In this document: positions 14,461-51,846 of the stretch, piece after piece
Position numbering within the stretch: the stretch's first letter is position 1
Layout: the number at the start of each line of letters is the position of its first letter
Origin: Arenicola marina
Lineage: Eukaryota; Annelida; Polychaeta; Arenicolidae
Reading direction: 5' to 3'
Length of the DNA: 64,000 nt
Assembly: GCA_964019135.1 (NCBI GenBank)
Contig: OZ025255.1
Location: 6,510,001-6,574,000 of the forward strand
Translations under genes and position numbers: made by a program
The notes under the pieces: generated by a model
Seen by the model: only the letters and a program-made list of their open reading frames with translations
Told to the model about the DNA's origin: nothing
Databases searched by the model: none

Positions 14461-15914
14461 GTTTAGTTATACCCCACACAAAACACTCGGTTTTACTCAT
14501 ATACTGCACAACACGCTCGGTTGTATCGACATGCTGTACAAACAACTCCATTTTGGCAATATACAACGGTAACAGACCATCTTCCAGCATTACTCTTCCC
14601 GAAACACTCGGTACGGCCGATATGCTGCTCAAAACAGTCGACTATTTCGATATGCTACCACCCACTTACCACCCAAAGCACTCCGATCTAACGATATGCT
14701 ACACGAAACACCCGATTTTAGTTATATCACACACAAAACAGTCGGTTTTACAGATATAATACACAACACGCTCGGTTCTATCAACATGCTGTACGAAACA
14801 CTCGCTTTTAGCAATGTACTACAGTAACACACCATATTTCACTATTACACTTCGCAAAACACTCGGCACGAGCGATATAATACTCAAAACAGTCGGCTCT
14901 TGCGATATACCATATAAACACTCGGTTCTAGCAATATACAACACAAACAAACATGATTTGATCATTTTATTAACAAAAACACCCGGTTCTACTGACAAAG
15001 TACGTAAACACACCTGAAGTAGTATTACACTACCAAAAATATTCGGTTCTGGTGATATGCTACTGAAAACAACCTGTTTCAGCGATATACTATACAACAC
15101 CCCCGGGTGTAGCGACAAACTACAAACACTCGGTTTTAGCGATATACCAGGGTAACACACAAAATTCCAGCATTACACTTATTAAAACGCTCGTTACGAG
15201 CGATACACTACTAAAAACAGTCGGCTCTTGCGATATACTATATAAAACACGCGGTTCCAAAGATATACAACACAAACAAACATGATTTGATCATTTTATT
15301 AACCAAAACACTGACTTCTACCAACATAGTACGTAAATACACCCGATCCCAGCATTGCACAACCAAAACACTCGGTTCTAGCGATATGCTACACGAAACA
15401 CCCGATTTTAGCTATATCCCACACAAAACACTCGATTTTACGGATATAATACACAACACGCTCGGTTCTATCAACATGCTGTACGAAACAGTCGCTTGTA
15501 GCAATGTACTACAGTAACACACCATATTTCACTATTACACTTCTCAAAACACTCGGCACGAGCGATATAATGCTCAAAACAGTCGGCTCTTGCGATATAC
15601 CATATAAACACTCGGTTCTAGCAATATACAACACAAACAAACATGATTTGATCATTTTATCAACAAAAACACCCGGTTCCACTGACAAAGTACGTGAACA
15701 CACCTGAATGTAGTATTACACTACCAAAAACATTCGGGGCTGGTGATATGCTACTGAAAACAACCTGTTTTAGCGATATACTATACAAAACCCCCGGGTG
15801 TAGCGACAAACTACAGAACACTCGGTTTTAGCGATATACCAGGGTAACACACAAAATTCCAGCATTACACTTATCAAAACGCTCGTTACGAGCGATACAC
15901 TACCAAAACACAAA
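14461..15914 (+). repeat. Link segment between 5,580-bp copies, paralogous to about 31,140-32,240
   Basis: Contains landmarks 14,814 and 15,504. From 14,814 onward it matches the segment from 31,140 at offsets of 16,322-16,326. Shared private variants include CAAAAATATTCGG, CTGTTTCAGCG and CCCGATCCCAGCATTGCAC. A small deletion lies at about 15,016 (CCTGAAGTAG for CCTGAATGTAG), and TTCGGGGCTGG at about 15,733 is unique. Confidence 0.8.
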
Positions 15915-33469: not shown

Positions 33470-34672
33470 ATGTACTACAGTAACACACCATATTTCACTA
33501 TTACACTTCTCAAAAAACTCGGCACGAGCGATATAATACTCAACCCAGTCGGCTCTTGAGATATACCATATAAACACTCGGTTCTAGCAATATACAAAAC
33601 AAACAAACATGATTTGATCATTTTATTAACAAAAAACCCGGTTCTACTGACAAAGTACGTAAACACACCTGATTGTAGTATTACACTACCAAAAACATTC
33701 GGTTCTGGTGATATGCTACTGAAAACAACCTGTTTTAGCGATATACTATACAAAACCCACGGGTGTAGCGACAAACTACAAACACTCGGTTTTAGCGATA
33801 TACCAGGGTAACACACACAATTCCAGTATTACACTTATCAAAACGCTCGTGCGATACACTACTAAAAACAGTCGGCTCTGGCGATATACTATATGAAACA
33901 CTCGGTTCCAACGATATACAACACAAACAAACATGATTTGATCATTTTATTAACCAAAACACTGAGTTCTACCAACATAGTACGTAAACACACCCGATTC
34001 CAGCATTACACAACCAAAACACTCGGTTCTAGCGATATACTACTCAAAACACTCGGGTTTAGTTATATCCCACACAAAACACTCGGTTTTACGGATATAC
34101 TACACAACACGCTCGGTGGTATCGACATGCTGTACAAAAAACTCGCTTTTAGCAATATACAACGGTAACAGACCATCTTCCAGCATTACTCTTTCCGAAA
34201 CACTCGGTCCGGCCGATATGCTACTCAAAACAGTCGACTCTTTTGATATGCTACCACCCACTTACCGCCCAAAGCACTCCAATTGAACGATATGCTACAC
34301 GAAACACCCGATTTTAGTTATATCCCACACAAAACACTCGGTTTTACGGATATACTACACAACACGCTCGGTGGTATCGACATGCTGTACAAAAAACTCG
34401 CTTTTAGCAATATACAACGGTAACAGACCATCTTCTAGCATTACTCTTCCCGAAACACTCGGTACGGCCGATATGCTACTCAAAACAGTCGACTCTTTCG
34501 ATATGCTACGACCCACTTACCACCCAAAGCACTCCGACCTAACGATATGCTACACGAAACACCCGATTTTAGTTATATCCAACACAAAACACTCGGTTTT
34601 ACGGATATAATACACAACACGCTCGGTTCTATCAACATGCTGTACGAAACACTCGCTTTTAGCAATGTACTA
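33470..34672 (+). repeat. Terminal left-arm block (1,195 bp) abutting the orientation switch
   Basis: The interval from landmark 33,470 to 34,665 equals a 940-bp block plus a 255-bp duplicated cassette. It carries the CCCACGGG marker at about 33,756. The last landmark is cut after ATGTACTA by the junction. Confidence 0.88.
34111..34620 (+). repeat. 255-bp cassette duplication next to the junction, chimeric
   Basis: GCTCGGTGGTATCGACATGC begins at 34,111 and again at 34,366. The first copy continues with the CTTTCCG / GGTCCGG / CAATTGAACG variant. The second continues with the CTTCCCG / GGTACGG / CGACCTAACG variant that is typical of other 947-bp blocks. The duplication therefore joins two subtypes of the same cassette, as expected from unequal crossover between different blocks. 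Confidence 0.9.
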
Positions 34673-34690
34673 TCATTATAACAGAGTGTG
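34660..34690. other. Orientation-switch junction between the two arms
   Basis: The left arm is canonical through AGCAATGTACTA, ending at 34,672, where every other block continues CAGTAACAC. Here it is followed by TCATTATAAC (34,673-34,682) and then right-arm monomers (GAGTGTGTTGTAGAATATG). About eight bases, 34,673-34,680, cannot be assigned cleanly to either arm. The flanks are not mirror images of each other: the monomer types on the two sides differ, so this is not a simple palindrome or fold-back duplication. It is either an inversion breakpoint inside a formerly uniform array, a join of two separately evolved arrays, or an assembly join. Confidence 0.9.
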
Positions 34691-34755
34691 TTGTAGAATA
34701 TGTCGCTATTACCGAGTGTTTTGTACAGTATATTCCTATAACCGAGTGCTTCGTG
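34673..34755 (-). repeat. First right-arm monomers after the switch
   Basis: Three monomers between the junction and the start of the 4,634-bp repeat. They match the run at about 36,515-36,580 (TTGTAGAATATG, CGCTATTACCGAG, GTACAGTATAT, GTGCTTCGTG) with changes (TGTGTTGTAG, TATGTCGC, TATTCC). The array was therefore cut inside a larger right-arm unit. Confidence 0.8.
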
Positions 34756-35020
34756 TAGTATATCCCTAAAAGCGAGTGTTTTGAGTAGCATATCGGTAGA
34801 ACCGAGTGTTTTGGTCAAGAAAATGATCGAATCATTAATTTTTTGTGTTGTATATCGCTAAAGCCGAGTGTTTTGTACCGTATGACGCTATACCCGAGAG
34901 TTAGGTGTAATATATCCCTAAAAGCAAGTGTTTTGAATAATATATCGCTAAAACCGTCTGTTTTTTGGGCAGTATGTCGCTATGACCGGGTTTTTTAGCA
35001 GTATATCGTTCTTACCGAGT

Positions 35021-35066
35021 GTTTTGGGAAGTGGAATACTTGAATCTGGTGTGCTTCCCTAGTATG
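35021..35066 (-). repeat. Divergent monomer class in the right arm (example)
   Basis: GGGAAGTGGAATACTTGAAT followed by CTGGTGTGCTTCCCTAGTATG. Read in the left-arm sense this is ACTAGGGAAGCACACC then AGATTCAAGTATTCC, clearly homologous to the left-arm example at 1,430-1,472. It recurs about every 0.2-1.4 kb in the right arm, typically as GGAATCTGGTGTGTTTCCC. Confidence 0.85.
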
Positions 35067-35216
35067 TCGCTAAAACCGAGTGTTTTGTACAATATTTCGC
35101 TATAACCGAGTGTTTTTAACAGTGTATCGCTATAATTGAGTGTTATATGCACTAAATCCTTAAAACAGAGTGTTTTGAGTAGTATATCGTTAAAAGCGAG
35201 TGTTTTCGTTAATAAA

Positions 35217-35229
35217 ATGATCGAATCAT
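35217..35229. other. Right-arm dyad element, ATGAT-CGA-ATCAT (example)
   Basis: The homologous monomer of the right arm carries the same inverted repeat with a different centre. In left-arm sense it is ATGAT-TCG-ATCAT, so the arms differ by one C/T change at a CpG. It is repeated many times across 34.8-64 kb. Variants with one damaged arm exist (ATGATCGAACCAT at about 36,099; ATTATCGAACCAT at about 44,787). Confidence 0.85.
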
Positions 35230-35348
35230 GTCTGTTTGTGTTGTATATCGCTAAAGCCGAGTGATTTGTACAGGATGTCGCTATAACTGAGTGTTGGGTG
35301 AAGTATATCCCTAAAAGCGGGTGTCTTGAATAGTAGTATATCGCTAAA

Positions 35349-38300
35349 ACCGAGTGTGGTTTGTGCAGTATGTCGCTATAACCGAGCGTTTTGCGTAGTA
35401 TGTCAATAAAACCGACTGTTTGAGCAGTATATCGCTCGTACCGAATGCTTTGAGCAGTATGTCGCTCGTACCGATTGTTTTGGGAAGTGGGATACTGGAA
35501 TCTGGTATGTTTCCCTAGTATGTCGCTAAAACCGAGTGTTTTTTTACGGTATATCGGTATAACCGAGTGTTATGTGTAGTAAATCCTTAAAACAGAGTGT
35601 TTTGAGTAGTATATCGTTAGAACCGAGTGTTTTCGTTAATGAAATGATCCAAACATGTGTGTTTGGGTTCTATTTCGCTAAAGCCGAGTGTTTTGTACCG
35701 TATGTCGTTATAACCGAGTGTTTTGTATAGTAAATCCCTCAAACCCAGTGTTTTGAGCAGTATATCGGTAGAACCGAGTGATTTGTACAGGATGTCGCTA
35801 TAACTGAGTGTTTGGTGTAGTATATCCCTAAAAGCGAGTGTCTTGAATAGTATATCACTAAAACCGAGTGTGGTTTGTGCAGTATGTCGGTAGAACCGAG
35901 TGTTTTGTTCAAGAAAATGATCGAATCATGTTTGTTTGTGTTCTATATCACTACAGATGAGTGTTTTGTACCGTGTGGCGCTATACCTGAGTGTTTGGTG
36001 TAATATATCCCTAAAAGCGAGTGTCTTGAATAGTATATCGCTAAAACCGAGTGTGGTTTGTGCAGTATGTCGTTAGAACCGAGTGTTTTGCTTAATAAAA
36101 TGATCGAACCATGTGTGTTTGTGTTGTATATCGCTAAAGCCGAGTGATTTGTAGAGCATGCCGCTATAACTAAGTGTTTGATGTGGTATATCCCTAAAAG
36201 CGAGTGTTTTAAGTAATATATCGCTAAAACCGCGTGTTTTATACAGTATGTCGCTTGAACCGAATGTTTTGTGTACTTTGTACCTAAAATCGGGTGTTTT
36301 TAGCAGTATATCCCTTGTACCGAGTGTTTTGGTTAATACAATGATCGAATCATGTCTGTTTGTGTTGTATATCGCTCAAGCCGAGTGATTTGTACAGGAT
36401 GTCGCTATAACTGAGTGTTGGGTGAAGTATATCCCTAAAAGCGAATGTTTTTAGTAGTATGTCCCTAAAAGCGAGTGTTTTGAGCAGTATATCGGTAGAA
36501 CCGAGTGATTTGTAGAATATGCCGCTATTACCGAGTGTTTTGTACAGTATATCCCTATAACCGAGTGCTTCGTGTAGTATATCCCTGAAAGCGAGTGTTT
36601 TGAGTAGCATATCGGTAGAACCGAGTGGTTTGGTCAAGAAAATGATCGAATCATGTCTGCTTGTGTCGTATATCGCTAAAGCCGAGTGTTTTGCACCGTA
36701 TGTCGCTATAACTGTTTTTGGTGTGTTTGGTGTAATATATCCCTAAAAACGAGTGTCTTGAATAGTATATCCCTAAAACCGACTGTGGTTTGTGCAGTAT
36801 GTCGCTATAACCGAGCGTTTTGCGTAGTATGTCAATAAAACCGCTGTTTGAGCAGTATGTCGCTCTTACCGATTGTTTTGGGCAGTGGGATACTGGAATC
36901 TGGTGTGTTTCCCTAGTATATCGCTAAAACCGAATGTTTTTTTACAGTTTATCGCTATACCCGAGGGTTATGTGTAGTAAATCCTTAAAACAGAGTGGTT
37001 TGAATAGTATGTCGTTAGAACCGAGTGTTTTGCTTAATAAAATGATCGAACCATGTGTGTTTGTGTTGTATATCGCTAAAGCCGAGTGATTTGTAGAGTA
37101 TGCCGCTATAACTAAGTGTTTGATTTAGTACATTCTTAAAAGCGAGTGTTTTAAGTAGTATATCGCTAAAACCGCGTGTTTTATACAGTATGTCGCTTGA
37201 ACCGATGTTTTGTGTACTTTGTACCTAAAACCGGGTGTTTTTAGCAGTATATCGCTTTTACCGAGTGTTTTGGTTAATAAAATGATCGAATCATGTCTGT
37301 TTGTGTTGTATATCGCTAAAGCCGAGTGATTTGTACAGGATGTCGCTATAACTGAGTGTTGGGTGAAGAATATGCCTAAAAGCGAATGTTTTTAGTAGTA
37401 TGTCCCTAAAAGCGAGTGTTTTGAGCAGTATATCGGTAGAACCGAGTGATTTGTAGAGTATGCCGCTATTACCGAGTGTTTTGTACAGTATATCCCTATA
37501 ACCGAGCGCTTCGTGTAGTATATCCCTAAAAGCGAGTGTGTTGAGTAGCATATCGGTAGAACCGAGTGTTTTGGTCAAGAAAATGATCGAATCATGTCTG
37601 TTTGTGTCGTATATCGCTAAAGCCGAGTGTTTTGTACCGTATATCGTTATAACCGCGTGTTTTGTATAATAAATCCCTAAAACCGAGTGTTTTGAGCAGT
37701 ATATCGGTAGAACCGAGTGTTTTGGTCAAGAAAATGATCGAATCATGTTTGTTTGTGTCGTATATCGCTAAAGCCGAGTGTTTGGTACCGTATGTCGCTA
37801 TAACTGAGTGTTTGGTGTAATATATGCCTAAAAACGAGTGTCTTGAATAGTATATCGCTAAAACCGAGTGTGGTTTGTGCAGTAAGTATGTCGCTATAAC
37901 CGAGCGTTTTGCGTAGTATGTCAATAAAACCGACTGTTTGAGCAGTGTGTCGCTCGTACCGATTGTTTTGGGAAGTGGGATACTGGAATCTGGTGTGTTT
38001 CCCTAGTATGTCACTAAAACCGAATGTTTTTTACAGTATATCGCTATACCCGAGTGTTATGTGTAGTAAATCCTTAAAACAGAGTGTTTTGAGTAGCATA
38101 TCAGTAGAACCGAGTGTGTTGGTCAAGAAAATGATCGAATCATGTCTGTTTGTGTCGTATATCGCTAAAGCCGAGTGTTTTGTACCATATGTCGTTAGAA
38201 CCGAGTGTTTTGCGTAGTATGTCAATAAAACCGACTGTTTGAGCAGTATATCGCTCGTACCGAGTGTTTTGAGCAGTATGTCGCTCGTACCGAGTGTTTT

Positions 38301-41300
38301 GGGAAATGGGATATTGGAATCTGGGGTGTTTCCCTAGTATGTCGCTAAAACCGAGTGTTTTTTACAGTATATCGCTATAACCGAGTGCTTCGTGTAGTAT
38401 ATCCCTAAAAGCGAGTGTTTTGAGTAGCATATCGGTAGAACCGAGTGTTTTTGTCAAGAAAATGATCGAATCATGTCTGTTTGTGTCGTATATCGCTAAA
38501 GCCGAGTGTTTTGTGCCGTATGTCGTTATAACCGCGTGTTTTGTATAGTAAATCCCTAAAACCGAGTGTTTTGAGCAGTATATCGGTAGAACCGAGTGTT
38601 TTGTTCAAGGACATGATCGAATCATGTTTGTTTGTGTTCTATATCACTACAGCCGAGTGTTTTGTGCAGTATGTCGCTATAACCGAGCGTTTTGCGCAGT
38701 ATGTCAATAAAACCGACTGTTTGAGCAGTATGTCGCTCGTACCGATTGTTTTGGGAAATGGGATACTGGAATCTGGTGAGTTTCCCTAGTATGTCGCTAA
38801 AACCGAGTGTTTTTTACAGTATATCGCTATAGCCGAGTGTTATGTGTAGTAAATCCTTAAAACATTGTTTTGAGTAGTATATCGTTAGAACCGAGTGTTT
38901 TGTTCAAGAAAATGATCGAATCATGTTTGTTTGTGTTCTATATCACTACAGCCGAGTGTTTTGTACCGTATGTCGCTATAACTGAGTGTTTGGTGTAATA
39001 TATCCCTAAAACCGAGTGTGGTTTGTGCAGTATGTCGCTATAACCGAGCGTTTTGCGTATTATGTCAATAAAACCGAGTGTTTTGAGCAGTATGTCGCTC
39101 GTACCGATTGTTTTGGGAAATGGGATACTGGAATCTGGTGTGTTTCCCTAGTATGTCGCTAAAACCGAGTGTTTTTTACAGTATATCACTATAACCGAGT
39201 GTTATGTGTAGTAAATCCTTAAAACAGATTGTTTTGAATAGTATATCGTTAGAACCGAGTGTTTTGTTCAAGAAAATGATCGAATCATGTTTGTTTGTGT
39301 TCTATATCACTACAGCCGAGTGATTTGTACAGGATGTCGCTATAACTGAGTGTTGGGTGAAGTATATCCCTAAAAGCGAATGTTTTTAGTAGTATATCCC
39401 TAAAAGCGAGTGTTTTGAGTAGCATATCGGTAGAACCGAGTGTTTTGGTCAAGAAAATGATCGAATCATTAATTTTTTGTGTTGTATATCGCTAAAGCCG
39501 AGTGTTTTGTACCGTATGACGCTATACCCGAGAGTTAGGTGTAATATATCCCTAAAAGCAAGTGTTTTGAATAATATATCGCTAAAACCGTCTGTTTTTT
39601 GGGCAGTATGTCGCTATGACCGGGTTTTTTAGCAGTATATCGTTCTTACCGAGTGTTTTGGGAAGTGGAATACTTGAATCTGGTGTGCTTCCCTAGTATG
39701 TCGCTAAAACCGAGTGTTTTGTACAATATTTCGCTATAACCGAGTGTTTTTAACAGTGTATCGCTATAATTGAGTGTTATATGCACTAAATCCTTAAAAC
39801 AGAGTGTTTTGAGTAGTATATCGTTAAAAGCGAGTGTTTTCGTTAATAAAATGATCGAATCATGTCTGTTTGTGTTGTATATCGCTAAAGCCGAGTGATT
39901 TGTACAGGATGTCGCTATAACTGAGTGTTGGGTGAAGTATATCCCTAAAAGCGGGTGTCTTGAATAGTAGTATATCGCTAAAACCGAGTGTGGTTTGTGC
40001 AGTATGTCGCTATAACCGAGCGTTTTGCGTAGTATGTCAATAAAACCGACTGTTTGAGCAGTATATCGCTCGTACCGAATGCTTTGAGCAGTATGTCGCT
40101 CGTACCGATTGTTTTGGGAAGTGGGATACTGGAATCTGGTATGTTTCCCTAGTATGTCGCTAAAACCGAGTGTTTTTTTACGGTATATCGGTATAACCGA
40201 GTGTTATGTGTAGTAAATCCTTAAAACAGAGTGTTTTGAGTAGTATATCGTTAGAACCGAGTGTTTTCGTTAATGAAATGATCCAAACATGTGTGTTTGG
40301 GTTCTATTTCGCTAAAGCCGAGTGTTTTGTACCGTATGTCGTTATAACCGAGTGTTTTGTATAGTAAATCCCTCAAACCCAGTGTTTTGAGCAGTATATC
40401 GGTAGAACCGAGTGATTTGTACAGGATGTCGCTATAACTGAGTGTTTGGTGTAGTATATCCCTAAAAGCGAGTGTCTTGAATAGTATATCACTAAAACCG
40501 AGTGTGGTTTGTGCAGTATGTCGGTAGAACCGAGTGTTTTGTTCAAGAAAATGATCGAATCATGTTTGTTTGTGTGCTATATCACTACAGATGAGTGTTT
40601 TGTACCGTGTGGCGCTATACCTGAGTGTTTGGTGTAATATATCCCTAAAAGCGAGTGTCTTGAATAGTATATCGCTAAAACCGAGTGTGGTTTGTGCAGT
40701 ATGTCGTTAGAACCGAGTGTTTTGCTTAATAAAATGATCGAACCATGTGTGTTTGTGTTGTATATCGCTAAAGCCGAGTGATTTGTAGAGCATGCCGCTA
40801 TAACTAAGTGTTTGATGTGGTATATCCCTAAAAGCGAGTGTTTTAAGTAATATATCGCTAAAACCGCGTGTTTTATACAGTATGTCGCTTGAACCGAATG
40901 TTTTGTGTACTTTGTACCTAAAATCGGGTGTTTTTAGCAGTATATCCCTTGTACCGAGTGTTTTGGTTAATACAATGATCGAATCATGTCTGTTTGTGTT
41001 GTATATCGCTCAAGCCGAGTGATTTGTACAGGATGTCGCTATAACTGAGTGTTGGGTGAAGTATATCCCTAAAAGCGAATGTTTTTAGTAGTATGTCCCT
41101 AAAAGCGAGTGTTTTGAGCAGTATATCGGTAGAACCGAGTGATTTGTAGAATATGCCGCTATTACCGAGTGTTTTGTACAGTATATCCCTATAACCGAGT
41201 GCTTCGTGTAGTATATCCCTGAAAGCGAGTGTTTTGAGTAGCATATCGGTAGAACCGAGTGGTTTGGTCAAGAAAATGATCGAATCATGTCTGCTTGTGT

Positions 41301-44300
41301 CGTATATCGCTAAAGCCGAGTGTTTTGCACCGTATGTCGCTATAACTGTTTTTGGTGTGTTTGGTGTAATATATCCCTAAAAACGAGTGTCTTGAATAGT
41401 ATATCCCTAAAACCGACTGTGGTTTGTGCAGTATGTCGCTATAACCGAGCGTTTTGCGTAGTATGTCAATAAAACCGCTGTTTGAGCAGTATGTCGCTCT
41501 TACCGATTGTTTTGGGCAGTGGGATACTGGAATCTGGTGTGTTTCCCTAGTATATCGCTAAAACCGAATGTTTTTTTACAGTTTATCGCTATACCCGAGG
41601 GTTATGTGTAGTAAATCCTTAAAACAGAGTGGTTTGAATAGTATGTCGTTAGAACCGAGTGTTTTGCTTAATAAAATGATCGAACCATGTGTGTTTGTGT
41701 TGTATATCGCTAAAGCCGAGTGATTTGTAGAGTATGCCGCTATAACTAAGTGTTTGATTTAGTACATTCTTAAAAGCGAGTGTTTTAAGTAGTATATCGC
41801 TAAAACCGCGTGTTTTATACAGTATGTCGCTTGAACCGATGTTTTGTGTACTTTGTACCTAAAACCGGGTGTTTTTAGCAGTATATCGCTTTTACCGAGT
41901 GTTTTGGTTAATAAAATGCTCGAATCATGTCTGTTTGTGTTGTATATCGCTAAAGCCGAGTGATTTGTACAGGATGTCGCTATAACTGAGTGTTGGGTGA
42001 AGTATATGCCTAAAAGCGAATGTTTTTAGTAGTATGTCCCTAAAAGCGAGTGTTTTGAGCAGTATATCGGTAGAACCGAGTGATTTGTAGAGTATGCCGC
42101 TATTACCGAGTGTTTTGTACAGTATATCCCTATAACCGAGTGCTTCGTGTAGTATATCCCTAAAAGCGAGTGTGTTGAGTAGCATATCGGTAGAACCGAG
42201 TGTTTTGGTCAAGAAAATGATCGAATCATGTCTGTTTGTGTCGTATATCGCTAAAGCCGAGTGTTTTGTACCGTATATCGTTATAACCGCGTGTTTTGTA
42301 TAATAAATCCCTAAAACCGAGTGTTTTGAGCAGTATATCGGTAGAACCGAGTGTTTTGGTCAAGAAAATGATCGAATCATGTTTGTTTGTGTCGTATATC
42401 GCTAAAGCCGAGTGTTTTGTACCGTATGTCGCTATAACTGAGTGTTTGGTGTAATATATGCCTAAAAACGAGTGTCTTGAATAGTATATCGCTAAAACCG
42501 AGTGTGGTTTGTGCAGTAAGTATGTCGCTATAACCGAGCGTTTTGCGTAGTATGTCAATAAAACCGACTGTTTGAGCAGTGTGTCGCTCGTACCGATTGT
42601 TTTGGGAAGTGGGATACTGGAATCTGGTGTGTTTCCCTAGTATGTCGCTAAAACCGAATGTTTTTTACAGTATATCGCTATACCCGAGTGTTATGTGTAG
42701 TAAATCCTTAAAACAGAGTGTTTTGAGTAGCATATCAGTAGAACCGAGTGTGTTGGTCAAGAAAATGATCGAATCATGTCTGTTTGTGTCGTATATCGCT
42801 AAAGCCGAGTGTTTTGTACCATATGTCGTTAGAACCGAGTGTTTTGCGTAGTATGTCAATAAAACCGACTGTTTGAGCAGTATATCGCTCGTACCGAGTG
42901 TTTTGAGCAGTATGTCGCTCGTACCGAGTGTTTTGGGAAATGGGATATTGGAATCTGGTGTGTTTCCCTAGTATGTCGCTAAAACCGAGTGTTTTTTTAC
43001 AGTATATCGCTATAACCGAGTGCTTCGTGTAGTATATCCCTAAAAGCGAGTGTTTTGAGTAGCATATCGGTAGAACCGAGTGTTTTTGTCAAGAAAATGA
43101 TCGAATCATGTCTGTTTGTGTCGTATATCGCTAAAGCCGAGTGTTTTGTGCCGTATGTCGTTATAACCGCGTGTTTTGTATAGTAAATCCCTAAAACCGA
43201 GTGTTTTGAGCAGTATATCGGTAGAACCGAGTGTTTTGTTCAAGGACATGATCGAATCATGTTTGTTTGTGTTCTATATCACTACAGCCGAGTGTTTTGT
43301 ACCGGATGTCGCTATAACTGAGTGTTTGGTGTAATATATTCCTAAAACCGAGTGTGGTTTGTGCAGTATGTCGCTATAACCGAGCGTTTTGCGCAGTATG
43401 TCAATAAAACCGACTGTTTGAGCAGTATGTCGCTCGTACCGATTGTTTTGGGAAATGGGATACTGGAATCTGGTGAGTTTCCCTAGTATGTCGCTAAAAC
43501 CGAGTGTTTTTTACAGTATATCGCTATAGCCGAGTGTTATGTGTAGTAAATCCTTAAAACATTGTTTTGAGTAGTATATCGTTAGAACCGAGTGTTTTGT
43601 TCAAGAAAATGATCGAATCATGTTTGTTTGTGTTCTATATCACTACAGCCGAGTGTTTTGTACCGTATGTCGCTATAACCGAGCGTTTTGCGCAGTATGT
43701 CAATAAAACCGAGTGTTTTGAGCAGTATGTCGCTCGTACCGATTGTTTTGGGAAATGGAATACTGGAATCTGGTGTGTTTCCCTAGTATGTCGCTAAAAC
43801 CGAGTGTTTTTTACAGTATATCACTATAACCGAGTGTTATGTGTAGTAAATCCTTAAAACAGATTGTTTTGAATAGTATATCGTTAGAACCGAGTGTTTT
43901 GTTCAAGAAAATGATCGAATCATGTTTGTTTGTGTTCTATATCACTACAGCCGAGTGATTTGTACAGGATGTCGCTATAACTGAGTGTTGGGTGAAGTAT
44001 ATCTCTAAAAGCGAATGTTTTTAGTAGTATGTCCCTAAGAGCGAGTGTTTTGAGCAATATATCGGTAGAACCGAGTGATTTGTAGAGTATGCCGCTATTA
44101 CCGAGTGTTTTGTACAGTATATCCCTATAACCGAGTGCTTCGTGTAGTATATCCCTAAAAGCGAGTGTTTTGAGTAGCATATCAGTAGAACCGAGTCTTT
44201 TGAGTAGCATATCAGTAGAATCGAGTGTTTTGGTCAGGAAAATGATCGAATCATGTCTGTTTGTGTCGTATATCGCTAAAGCCGAGTGTTTTGTACCGTA

Positions 44301-46262: not shown

Positions 46263-47162
46263 CCCTAAAACCGAGCGTGGTTTGTGCAGTATGTCGCTAT
46301 AACCGAGCGTTTTGCGTAGTATGTCAATAAAACCGACTGTTTGAGCAGTATGTCGCTCGTACCGATTGTTTTGGGAAGTGGGATACTGGAATCTGGTGTG
46401 TTTCCCTAGTATGTCGCTAAAACCGAGTGTTTGTTTACAGTATATCGCTATACCCGAGTATTATGTGTAGCAAATCCTTAAAACAGAGCGTTGTGAGTAG
46501 TATGTCGTTAGAACCGAGTGTTTTGGTTAATAAAATGATCGAACCATGTGTGTTTGTGTTGTATATCGCTAAAGCCGAGTGATTTGTAGAGCATGTTGCT
46601 ATAACTAAGTGTTTGATGTAGTATATCCCTAAAAGCGAGTGTTTTAAGTAGTATATCGCTAAAACCGCGTGTTTTATACAGTATGTCGCTTGAGCCGAAT
46701 GTTTTGTGTACTTTGTACCTAAAACCGGGTGTTTTTAGCAGTACATCCCTTGTACCGAGTGTTTTGGTTAATAAAATGATCGAATCATGTCTGTTTGTGT
46801 TGTATATCGCTAAAGCCGAGTGATTTGTACAGGATGTTGCTATAACTGAGTGTTTGGTGTAATATATCCCTAAAAGCGAGTGTCTTGAATAGTATATCGC
46901 TAAAACCGAGTGTGGTTTGTGCAGTATATCGCTATAACCGAGTGTTATGTCTAGTAAATCCTTAAAACAGAGTGTTTTGAGTATTATATCGTTAGAACCG
47001 AGTGTTTTGGTTAATAAAACGATCGAATCGTGTCTGTTTGTGTTGTATTTGTACAGGATGTTGCTATAACTGAGTGTTTGGTGTAATATATCCCTAAAAG
47101 CGAGTGTCTTGAATAGTATATCGCTAAAACCGAGTGTGGTTTGTGCAGTATATCGCTATAAC
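46263..47162 (-). repeat. Spacer between 2,457-bp copies with a 224-bp local duplication
   Basis: Ordinary right-arm monomers. AGGATGTTGCTATAACTGAG occurs at 46,831 and again at 47,055 with the same following order of monomers, giving a 224-bp tandem duplication. The first copy carries TATGTCTAGTAAATCC (about 46,946), also found near 48,798. The second has the usual TATGTGTAG. Confidence 0.8.
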
Positions 47163-48719: not shown

Positions 48720-50186
48720 CCCTCAAAGCGAGTGTCTTGAATAGTATATCGCTAAAACCGAGTGTGGTTTGTGCAGTATATCGCTATAACCGAGTGTTAT
48801 GTCTAGTAAATCCTTAAAACAGAGTGTTTTGAGTATTATATCGTTAGAACCGAGTGTTTTGGTTAATAAAACGATCGAATCGGGTCTGTTTGTGTTGTAT
48901 TTGTACAGGATGTCGCTATAACTGAGTGTTGGGTGAAGTATATCCCTCAAAGCGAATGTATTTAGTAGTATGTCCCTAGGTACGAGTGTTTTGAGCAGTA
49001 TATCGGTAGAACCGAGTGATTTGTAGAGTATGCCGCTATTACCGAGTGTGTTGTACAGTATATCCCTATAACCGAGAGCTTCGTGTAGTATATCCCAAAA
49101 AGCGAGTGTTTTGAGTAGCATATCGGTAGAACCGAGTGTTTTGGTCAAGAAAATGATCGAATCACGTCTGTTTGTGTCGTATATCGCTAAAGCCGAGTGT
49201 TTTGTGCCGTATGTCGTTATAACCGCGTGTTTTGTATAGTAAATCCCTAAAACCGAGTGTTTTGAGCAGTATGTCGGTAGAACCGAGTGTTTTGTTCAAG
49301 GACATGATCGAATCATGTTTGTTTGTGTTCTATATCACTACAGCCGAGTGTTTTGTACCGTATGTCGCTATAACTGAGTGTTTGGTGTAATATATTCCTA
49401 AAACCGAGTGTGGTTTGTGCAGTATGTCGCTATAACCGAGCGTTTTGCGTAGTATGTCAATGAAACCGACTGTTTGAGCAGTATGTCGCTCGTACCGATT
49501 GTTTTGGAAAGTGGGATACTCCCTAGTATGTCGCTAAAACCGAGTGTTTGTTTACAGTATATCGCTATACCCGAGTGTTATGTGTAGTAAATCCTTAAAA
49601 CAGAGTGTTTGGAGTATTATATCGTTAGAACCGAGTGTTTTGGTTAATAAAATGATCGAACCATGTGTGTTTGTGTTGTATATCGCTAAAGCCGAGTGAT
49701 TTGTAGAGCATGCCGCTATAACTAAGTGTTTGATGTAGTATATCCCTAAAAGCGAGTGTTTTAAGTAGTATATCGTTAAAACCGCGTGTTTTATACAGTA
49801 TGTCGCTTGAGCCGAATGTTTTGTGTACTTTGTACCTAAAACCGGGTGATTTTAGCAGTATATCCCTTGTACCGAGTGTTTTGGTTAATAAAATGATCGA
49901 ATCATGTCTGTTTGTCTTGTATATCGCTAAAGCGAGTGATTTGTACAGGATGTCGCTATAACTGTGTGTTGGGTGAAGTATATTTCTAAAAGCGAATGTT
50001 TTTAGTAGTATGTCCCTAAAAGCGAGTGTTTTGAGCAGTATATCGGTAGAACCGAGTGATTTGTAGAGTATGCCGCTATTACCGAGTGTTTTGTACAGTA
50101 TATCCCTATAACCGAGTGCTTCGTGTAGTATATCCATAAAAGCGAGTGTTATGAGTAGCATATCGGTAGAATCGAGTGTTTTGGTC
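48720..50186 (-). repeat. Right-arm segment with no second long copy in the window
   Basis: About 1.5 kb of right-arm monomers that I cannot pair with another long copy, although each monomer type occurs elsewhere. It includes a deletion in the divergent monomer at 49,511-49,525 and the longest uninterrupted reading frame of the window (49,625-50,188, minus strand). Private changes include GAATCGGGTCTG at about 48,886 and GTTTGTCTTGTATATCG at about 49,910. Confidence 0.75.
49501..49530 (-). repeat. Divergent monomer with an internal deletion of about 16 bp
   Basis: Reads GTGGGATACTCCCTAGTATG where other copies have GATACT, then GGAATCTGGTGTGTTT, then CCCTAG. The missing piece is about 16 bases. 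No other copy in the window shows it. Confidence 0.85.
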
Positions 50187-50188
50187 AA
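49625..50188 (-). other. Longest open frame (187 codons), decapeptide repeat; probably not a gene
   Basis: This minus-strand frame runs through about 18 successive monomers without a stop. It would give a near-perfect decapeptide periodicity of the form KTLGFSDILL with variants KTLAFRDILL and KTLGYRDILY. The same phase is open for 60-140 codons at many other places in both arms. The consensus monomer lacks stops in four of its six frames, so long open stretches are expected without selection. No conserved start context, signal sequence, intron signals or unique domain is visible. I list it because it is the only frame near 190 codons; its close relatives in the 18.3-kb and 4.6-kb repeats are broken earlier. 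Confidence 0.3.
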
Positions 50189-51846
50189 GAAAATGATCGA
50201 ATCATGTCTGTTTGTGTCGTATATCGCTAAAGCCGAGTGTTTTGTACCGTATGTCGTTATAACCGCGTGTTTTGCATAGTAAATTGCTAAAACCGAGTGT
50301 TTTGAGCAGTATATCGGTAGAACCGAGTGTTTTGTTCAAGAAAATGATCGAATCATGTTTGTTTGTGTTCTATATCACTACAGCCGAGTGTTTTTTACCG
50401 TATGTCGCTATAACTGAGTGTTGGGCGAAGTATGTCCCTAAAAGCGAGTGTCTTGATTAGTATATCGCTAAAACCGAGTGTGGTTTGTGCAGTATGTCGC
50501 TATAACCGAGCGTTTTGCGTAGTATATCAATAAAACCGACTGTTTGAGCAGTATATCGCTCGTACCGAGTGTTTTGAGCAGTATGTCGCTCGTACCGATT
50601 GTTTTGGGAAATGGGATACTGGAATCTGGTGTGTTTCCCTAGTATGTCGCTAAAACCGAGTGTTTTTTACAGTATATCGCTATAACCGAGTGTTATGTGT
50701 AGTGAATCCTTAAAACAGATTGTTTTGAGTAGTATATCGTTAGAACCGAGTGTTTTTTTCAAGAAAATGATCGAATCATGTTTGTTTGTGTTCTATATCA
50801 CTACAGCTGAGTGATTTGTACAGGATGTCGCTATAACTGAGTGTTGGGTGAAGTATATCCCTAAAAGCGAATGTTTTTAGTAGAATGTCCCTACGAGCGA
50901 GTGTTTTGAGCAGTATATCGGTAGAACCGAGTGATTTGTAGAGTATGCCGCTATTACCGAGTGTTTTGTACAGTATATCCCTATAACCGAGTGTTTCGTG
51001 TAGTATATCCCTAAAAGCGAGTGTTTTGAGTAGAATATCAGTAGAACCGAGTGTTTTGGTCAAGAAAATGATCGAATCATGTCTGTTTGTGTCGTATATC
51101 GCTAAAGCCGAGTGTTTTGTGCCGTATGTCGTTATAACCGCGTGTTTTGTAAAGTAAATCTCTAAAAGCGAGTGTTTTGAGCAGTATATCGGTAGAACCG
51201 AGTGTTTTGTTCAATCAAATGATCGAATCGTGTTTGTTTGTGTTCTATATCACTACAGCCGAGTGTTTTGTACCGTATGTCGCTATAACTGAGTGTTTGG
51301 TGTAATATATCCCTAAAAGCGAGTGTCTTGAATAGTATATCGCTAAAACCGAGCGTGGTTTGTGCAGTATGTCGCTATAACCGAGCCTTTTGCGTAGTAT
51401 GTCAATAAAACCGACTGTTTGAGCAGTATGTCGCTCGTACCGATTGTTTTGGGTAGTGGGATACTGGAATCTGGTGTGTTTCCCTAGTATGTCTCTAAAA
51501 CCGAATGTTTTTTACAGTATATCGCTATACCCGAGTGTTATGTGTTGTAAATCCTTAAAACAGAGTGTTTTGAGTAGTATGTCGTTAGAACCGAGTGTTT
51601 TGCTTAATCAAATTATCGAACCATGTGTGTTTGTGTTTTATATCGCTAAAGCCGAGTGATTTGTAGAGTATGCCGCTATAACTAAGTGTTTGATGTAGTA
51701 TATCCCTAAAAGCGAGTGTTTTAAGTAGTATATCGCGAAAACCGCGTGTTTTATACAGTATGTCGCTTGAACGGAATTTTTTGTGTATTTTGTGCCTAAA
51801 ACCGGGTGTTTTTAGCAGTATATCGCTTGTACCGAGTGTTTTGGTT
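50187..51846 (-). repeat. 1,660-bp tandem repeat, copy 1
   Basis: From CAAGAAAATGATCG at about 50,187, followed by TGTTTGTGTCGTATATCGC. The next 1.66 kb recurs immediately. Markers are GCATAGTAAATTGC at about 50,272, TGTTTTTTTCAAGAAAATG at about 50,751, and GAACGGAATTTTTTGTG at about 51,769. Confidence 0.92.

Follow-up and report, generated by a model that had tools for sequence, protein, structure and literature searches.

A bare joint between two opposed domains of a 30-bp satellite, and its probable origin as a rearrangement breakpoint

The window, i.e., the whole 64-kb stretch of DNA that was analysed, consists from end to end of a single satellite with a monomer of roughly 30 bp, the orientation of which changes once, at a bare joint between two arrays with separate higher-order families. 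This joint is probably a rearrangement breakpoint within a eukaryote-type satellite block, where two already homogenised domains would have been joined end to end, most likely by an inversion. The switch is present in the sequence as given, and is more probably a true chromosome breakpoint than an assembly error.

One satellite with a single change of orientation

Segmentation with a cyclic profile divided the left array (positions 1–34,672, + strand, consensus AAAACACTCGGTTCTAGCGATATACTACAC) into 1,162 pieces, including partial ones, and the right array (34,673–64,000, − strand, reverse-strand consensus AAAACACTCGGTTTTAGCGATATACTACAC) into 970. Pieces of exactly 30 bp made up 850 of the former and 701 of the latter, and the two consensus monomers are unlike at only one of 30 positions. 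Both arrays have a long-range order: among lags above 1 kb, the strongest was 1,632 bp on the left and 4,634 bp on the right, the latter scoring slightly below the lags of 30 and 151 bp of the same array. Long repeats are present on both sides, with an identity of 98.2–99.9% on the left and at least 99.8% on the right among the matches listed. One of them, the right-array stretch 34,755–38,324 (− strand), is 99.8% identical to 39,389–42,958 at the lag of 4,634 bp. When 150-bp segments were sampled every 300 bp, their mean best identity to other copies was 0.996 on the left and 0.995 on the right. Apart from the joint, the least-matching sampled segments were 15,001–15,150, 46,373–46,522 and 46,973–47,122 (91–93%), which are perhaps older unit boundaries.

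The same repeat family runs in opposed orientation on the two sides of the joint. Allowing up to two mismatches, the core ACACTCGGTT was found 676 times on the + strand and never on the − strand to the left, and 805 times on the − strand and never on the + strand to the right. The shorter core GATATAC with one mismatch gave a less clean separation (564 + and 51 − on the left, 21 + and 692 − on the right), whereby the 51 and 21 off-strand cases are put down to chance or to variants, the word being short and partly self-complementary. Moreover, the 2,745 and 3,166 distinct 12-mers of the left and right arrays had none in common in direct orientation and 206 in inverted orientation. The GC skew also changes sign at the joint, from about −0.3 to +0.22.

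A two-strand cyclic profile placed only one switch, at 34,671, with penalties of −25, −30 and −60. With a penalty of −20, there were 21 switches (20 of the 21 listed), and with −15 there were 59: besides that at 34,671, they made up 29 excursions, each 1–11 bases long and returning to the same strand. Since the low-penalty excursions are brief and come back to the strand they left, the window has one sustained change of orientation. No second sustained switch was found by this model within the 64-kb window, and no reciprocal breakpoint lies there. The strand flip and its position, both part of the original prediction, are thus confirmed by the core counts and by the single switch at 34,671. 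A 15-bp partial monomer occurs at 34,511–34,525 and at 14 further places of the left array (15 segmented pieces in all), and 15 of the 24 left-array excursions at low penalty begin no more than 15 bases from one of these.

The joint at base level

The left array remains identical to its own internal copies over 34,561–34,672 (four copies shown). Its last monomer (34,646–34,672, + strand) is cut after profile column 27, and these 27 bases recur exactly at 26 other places on the left. Beyond 34,672, following the left copies for six more bases, to 34,678, takes both a gap and a mismatch. The right array is in phase with internal right copies, gap-free but with mismatches, from TATC at 34,671, and its alignment starts from GTA at 34,667 if a one-base gap is allowed. 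Its first monomer (34,673–34,692, − strand) is cut as well, retaining columns 1–20, or 1–22 if the dinucleotide TA is counted, and is nearest to monomers of the right array. The TA at 34,671–34,672 fits both arrays without a gap, so the joint is sharp, with an overlap of 2 bp and no unrelated sequence between the arrays.

Even the first monomers to the right of the joint are those of the right-hand family. Over 34,671–34,692, the best match in the right array was 19 of 22 positions, compared with 17 of 22 in the reversed left array, and over 34,671–34,722 the respective values were 45 and 39 of 52. This is at odds with the earlier proposal that about eight bases at the joint (taken as 34,673–34,680) belong to neither side; judged by the match to the right array, they would then belong to a right monomer of slightly unusual sequence. 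Taken by themselves, these eight bases are undiscriminating, as seven of the eight match somewhere in both arrays on both strands.

No other copy of the joint’s 16 bases was found in the window within three mismatches, the chance expectation being 1.9. The surrounding 34,654–34,722 forms a 69-bp tag that is unique in the window, being its second longest run of window-unique 20-mers. On the right, the edge 34,673–34,754 (− strand) precedes the well-copied unit: the 150-bp segments starting at 34,673, 34,698 and 34,723 matched other right copies at 92–93%, and those starting at 34,248–34,398 on the left matched at 94–98%. The two whole monomers before 34,755 each match 29 of 30 positions elsewhere, so part of the drop at the right edge comes from the monomer order changing at 34,755. 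No age of the joint is drawn from the lower copy identity near it.

Two domains of one satellite

Despite the nearly identical consensus, the two sides have separate repertoires. Not one of the 194 distinct monomer strings of the left array was identical to any of the 228 of the right array, and only 0.5% and 0.4% of them, respectively, were nearer to the other side. The mean nearest-neighbour identity was 0.95 within a side and 0.80–0.83 across. The average monomer behaves differently: mean pairwise identity was 0.618 across the joint, 0.605 within the left array and 0.674 within the right, and since the value across the joint is not below that within the left array, the difference sits in the higher-order families. 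The prediction of two subfamilies separated by the joint therefore holds for the sorting of individual monomers, with the caveat that the consensus sequences and the average identities hardly set them apart. Its companion claim, that the flanking monomers are of different types and the site is not a simple mirror, was borne out, as the two sides have no identical monomer strings, only two inverted 24-mers and no inverted 28-mers in common.

Two unusual variants, searched for with the loose patterns GATTTGATCATTTT (variant D, up to three mismatches) and CCAGATTCCAGTAT (variant E, up to four mismatches), occur on both sides with different spacings: D was found 82 times on the left and 95 times on the right, and E 188 and 42 times. 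Variant D has side-specific letters, TG in 80 and TT in two cases on the left (n = 82), and CG in 96 and GG in four cases on the right (n = 100). The presence of both variants on both sides with unlike spacing, together with the side-specific letters of D, points to a common origin followed by separate reshuffling. Judged from sequence, we read this as one satellite whose two domains appear to have been reshuffled and homogenised apart. Within D, the motif TGATT-T/C-GATCA has T in the middle in all 82 left cases and C in 96 of 100 right cases; kept on both sides, it is a possible protein-binding site.

A shared ancestral order of monomers was considered and rejected. Thirty blocks of 11 monomers, taken from about 3.9 kb in the first part of the left array, had a mean score of 131.1 against the right array, compared with 124.8 for 60 order-shuffled blocks; the shuffled maximum of 159.5 exceeded the observed one of 154.0, so any trace is weak at most. 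Over its last 640 bp (34,033–34,670), the left array is a local tandem of 255 bp with 2.5 copies and 93% matches, which ends at the joint. The 255-bp spacing of E variants is also seen 21 times across the left array, so this coincidence may mean nothing.

Origin of the joint and comparison with known switches

The proposed course of events starts from two domains of the 30-bp satellite that had been homogenised before, each into higher-order repeats of its own. Breaks inside a monomer on both sides would then have been joined tail to tail, through end joining with an overlap of about 2 bp. We infer a chromosome event, most likely an inversion of which one or both breakpoints lay in the satellite; afterwards, each side could have been homogenised only with repeats of the same orientation, so that the domains stay distinct. 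The left array ends in a truncated unit of which there are many copies further inside, and the unit therefore predates the cut. The bareness of the joint, its two-base overlap and the mid-monomer cuts on both sides fit the end joining of two breaks, although an overlap of 2 bp is common by chance. The original prediction had taken the switch point as a sign of inversion. A clean switch between separately homogenised domains is supported and has precedents in print; its origin by inversion is a likely reading, with no second switch in the window. Inversion is the simplest event, but the distinct families are accounted for just as well by a fusion of arrays from different chromosomes, and either such a fusion or a misassembly would look the same here.

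An artificial joint, made by an assembler or a library from two unlinked arrays (misassembly or a chimeric molecule), is unlikely, albeit both sides are highly repetitive (the mean best identities of 0.996 and 0.995 given above) and hence of the kind hardest to assemble. Overlap assemblers join on long shared stretches, unlike the overlap of just 2 bp seen at the joint. Chimeras that come from hairpins or inverted amplification are reversals of the same or a nearby molecule, whereas the right array is not the reversed left one, no inverted 28-mer being common to both sides of the window.

It is slightly less probable that the joint is a base-level scar of a chromosome fusion. In that case, the satellite versions of two chromosomes would have run in one and the same direction with respect to the chromosome end, namely towards it, and end joining with the 2-bp overlap would have made one opposed block of two chromosome-specific arrays. 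Such a fusion would account together for the flip, for the unlike higher-order families and for the absence of a mirror image. A search of the window for 12 short motifs in tandem, mostly of telomere types, found none; fusions often lose chromosome ends. A sister-chromatid bridge would give a mirror, and none was seen. For the minisatellite BvMSat05 of beet, where such joints are head to head, breakage–fusion–bridge cycles or double-strand break repair have been proposed (PMC2820488), and in the commonest human Robertsonian forms a shared acrocentric region is reported to be inverted at the fusion site.

Very improbable is a fold-back, in which replication would have reversed at a hairpin within one monomer and gone on to copy the array in the opposite direction, with later divergence. 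On a reading of the consensus monomers, a 3-base loop would bring the two sides into phase at the joint, and the flanks do form imperfect inverted repeats (e.g., one of 87 nt at 72% and another of 67 nt at 78%). The similarity of the four whole monomers on each side was 0.750 compared with the average of 0.618, a value reached by 1.25% of 400 random pairs and, against distinct blocks, by 1.1% of 450 and 4.2% of 479. This excess is what a fold-back predicts and counts against a breakpoint between two separate domains. With the cut end monomers included, none of 406 left three-monomer blocks was as similar to the right flank, a test that favours the two shortened blocks, and in the reverse comparison 57% of 419 were as high. 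Blocks of 1, 2, 8, 11 and 16 monomers had no clear excess (25.5, 10.5, 61, 40.5 and 91.5% of 400 pairs as high, respectively). As several block sizes were tried and most were without excess, the similarities of the four-monomer and cut-monomer flanks are not compelling. The end monomers themselves are not mirror images of one another from the joint outwards, and of 200 random joins of left and right sequence, 47, 35, 6 and 29.5% folded as well as the joint at 60, 100, 150 and 200 bp per side. The unmirrored end monomers and the folding, ordinary among such joins, disfavour a recent fold-back. The hairpin was also considered as a signal of its own and rejected: it stood out against shuffled sequence (z = −5.15, 0 of 200) but was ordinary against random joins of left and right.

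That the opposed arrays are kept because the switch point has a function, such as placing a centromere core, is hardly credible. The GC skew does change sign there, and at all four sizes the joint folded better than any of 200 pieces from within an array, but both effects arise when copies of a strand-biased repeat are set against each other, and random joins folded similarly. We infer that the switch point has no function of its own.

The joint, which we read as a probable rearrangement breakpoint, is one more orientation switch of a kind already in print. Alpha-satellite monomers are about 171 bp long. In orangutan and macaque centromeres, alpha-satellite inversions were checked with ultra-long reads (PMC11062924, available text); the likeness is a change of orientation inside a satellite array, and the differences are the longer monomer and the 3.2-Mb inversion named there. 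In BvMSat05, the 21-bp minisatellite of beet, the head-to-head junction is described as typical (PMC2820488). It resembles the present case in being a joint between two oppositely oriented arrays of short monomers, but its monomer sequence differs, its joint is head to head while the present consensus points towards the joint on either side, and it recurs in multiple arrays beside a conserved 50-bp palindromic flank, compared with one joint here. The 30-bp beet BvMSat07, described in the same text, has GATCA-type motifs in a sequence different from the present repeat.

Strand switches are likewise described for the human satellites GAATG, hsatII, GsatII, CER and Acro in the accessible part of PMC2588610. 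These are other repeat families than the one studied here, and the likeness is at the level of the arrays (large arrays reversing within one block, homology domains and higher-order structure). The Chio1 and Chio2 satellites of Chionographis japonica, as presented in the available text of PMC10264360, have monomers of 23 and 28 bp, a higher-order repeat cluster and a mixture of forward and reverse orientations; CENH3 enrichment is shown there, and the likeness is in array layout. In the available portions of PMC12321929, PMC8052823 and PMC12058530, nothing was found on a joint of this kind. If real, the joint offers a base-exact satellite breakpoint with a 69-bp tag that could be traced in other individuals, and a case where two higher-order families of one satellite adjoin and are kept apart where their orientation differs. 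Knowledge of satellites in general is unchanged by it.

Apart from the repeat, no tRNAs were found in the window, and no RNA families at the gathering score. The exact monomer pattern had no match in viral contigs or prokaryote genome contigs, an 800-bp stretch spanning the joint had no blastn match among plasmids or phages, and six typed stretches of the repeat were not found in the literature searched. As the collections searched were those of prokaryotes, viruses, phages and plasmids, these results say little on whether the satellite is already known. Open frames of at least 100 aa numbered 116 and were spread across both arrays, probably because 30 is a multiple of 3; the longest stop-to-stop frame listed (49,625–50,335, − strand) spans 236 aa.
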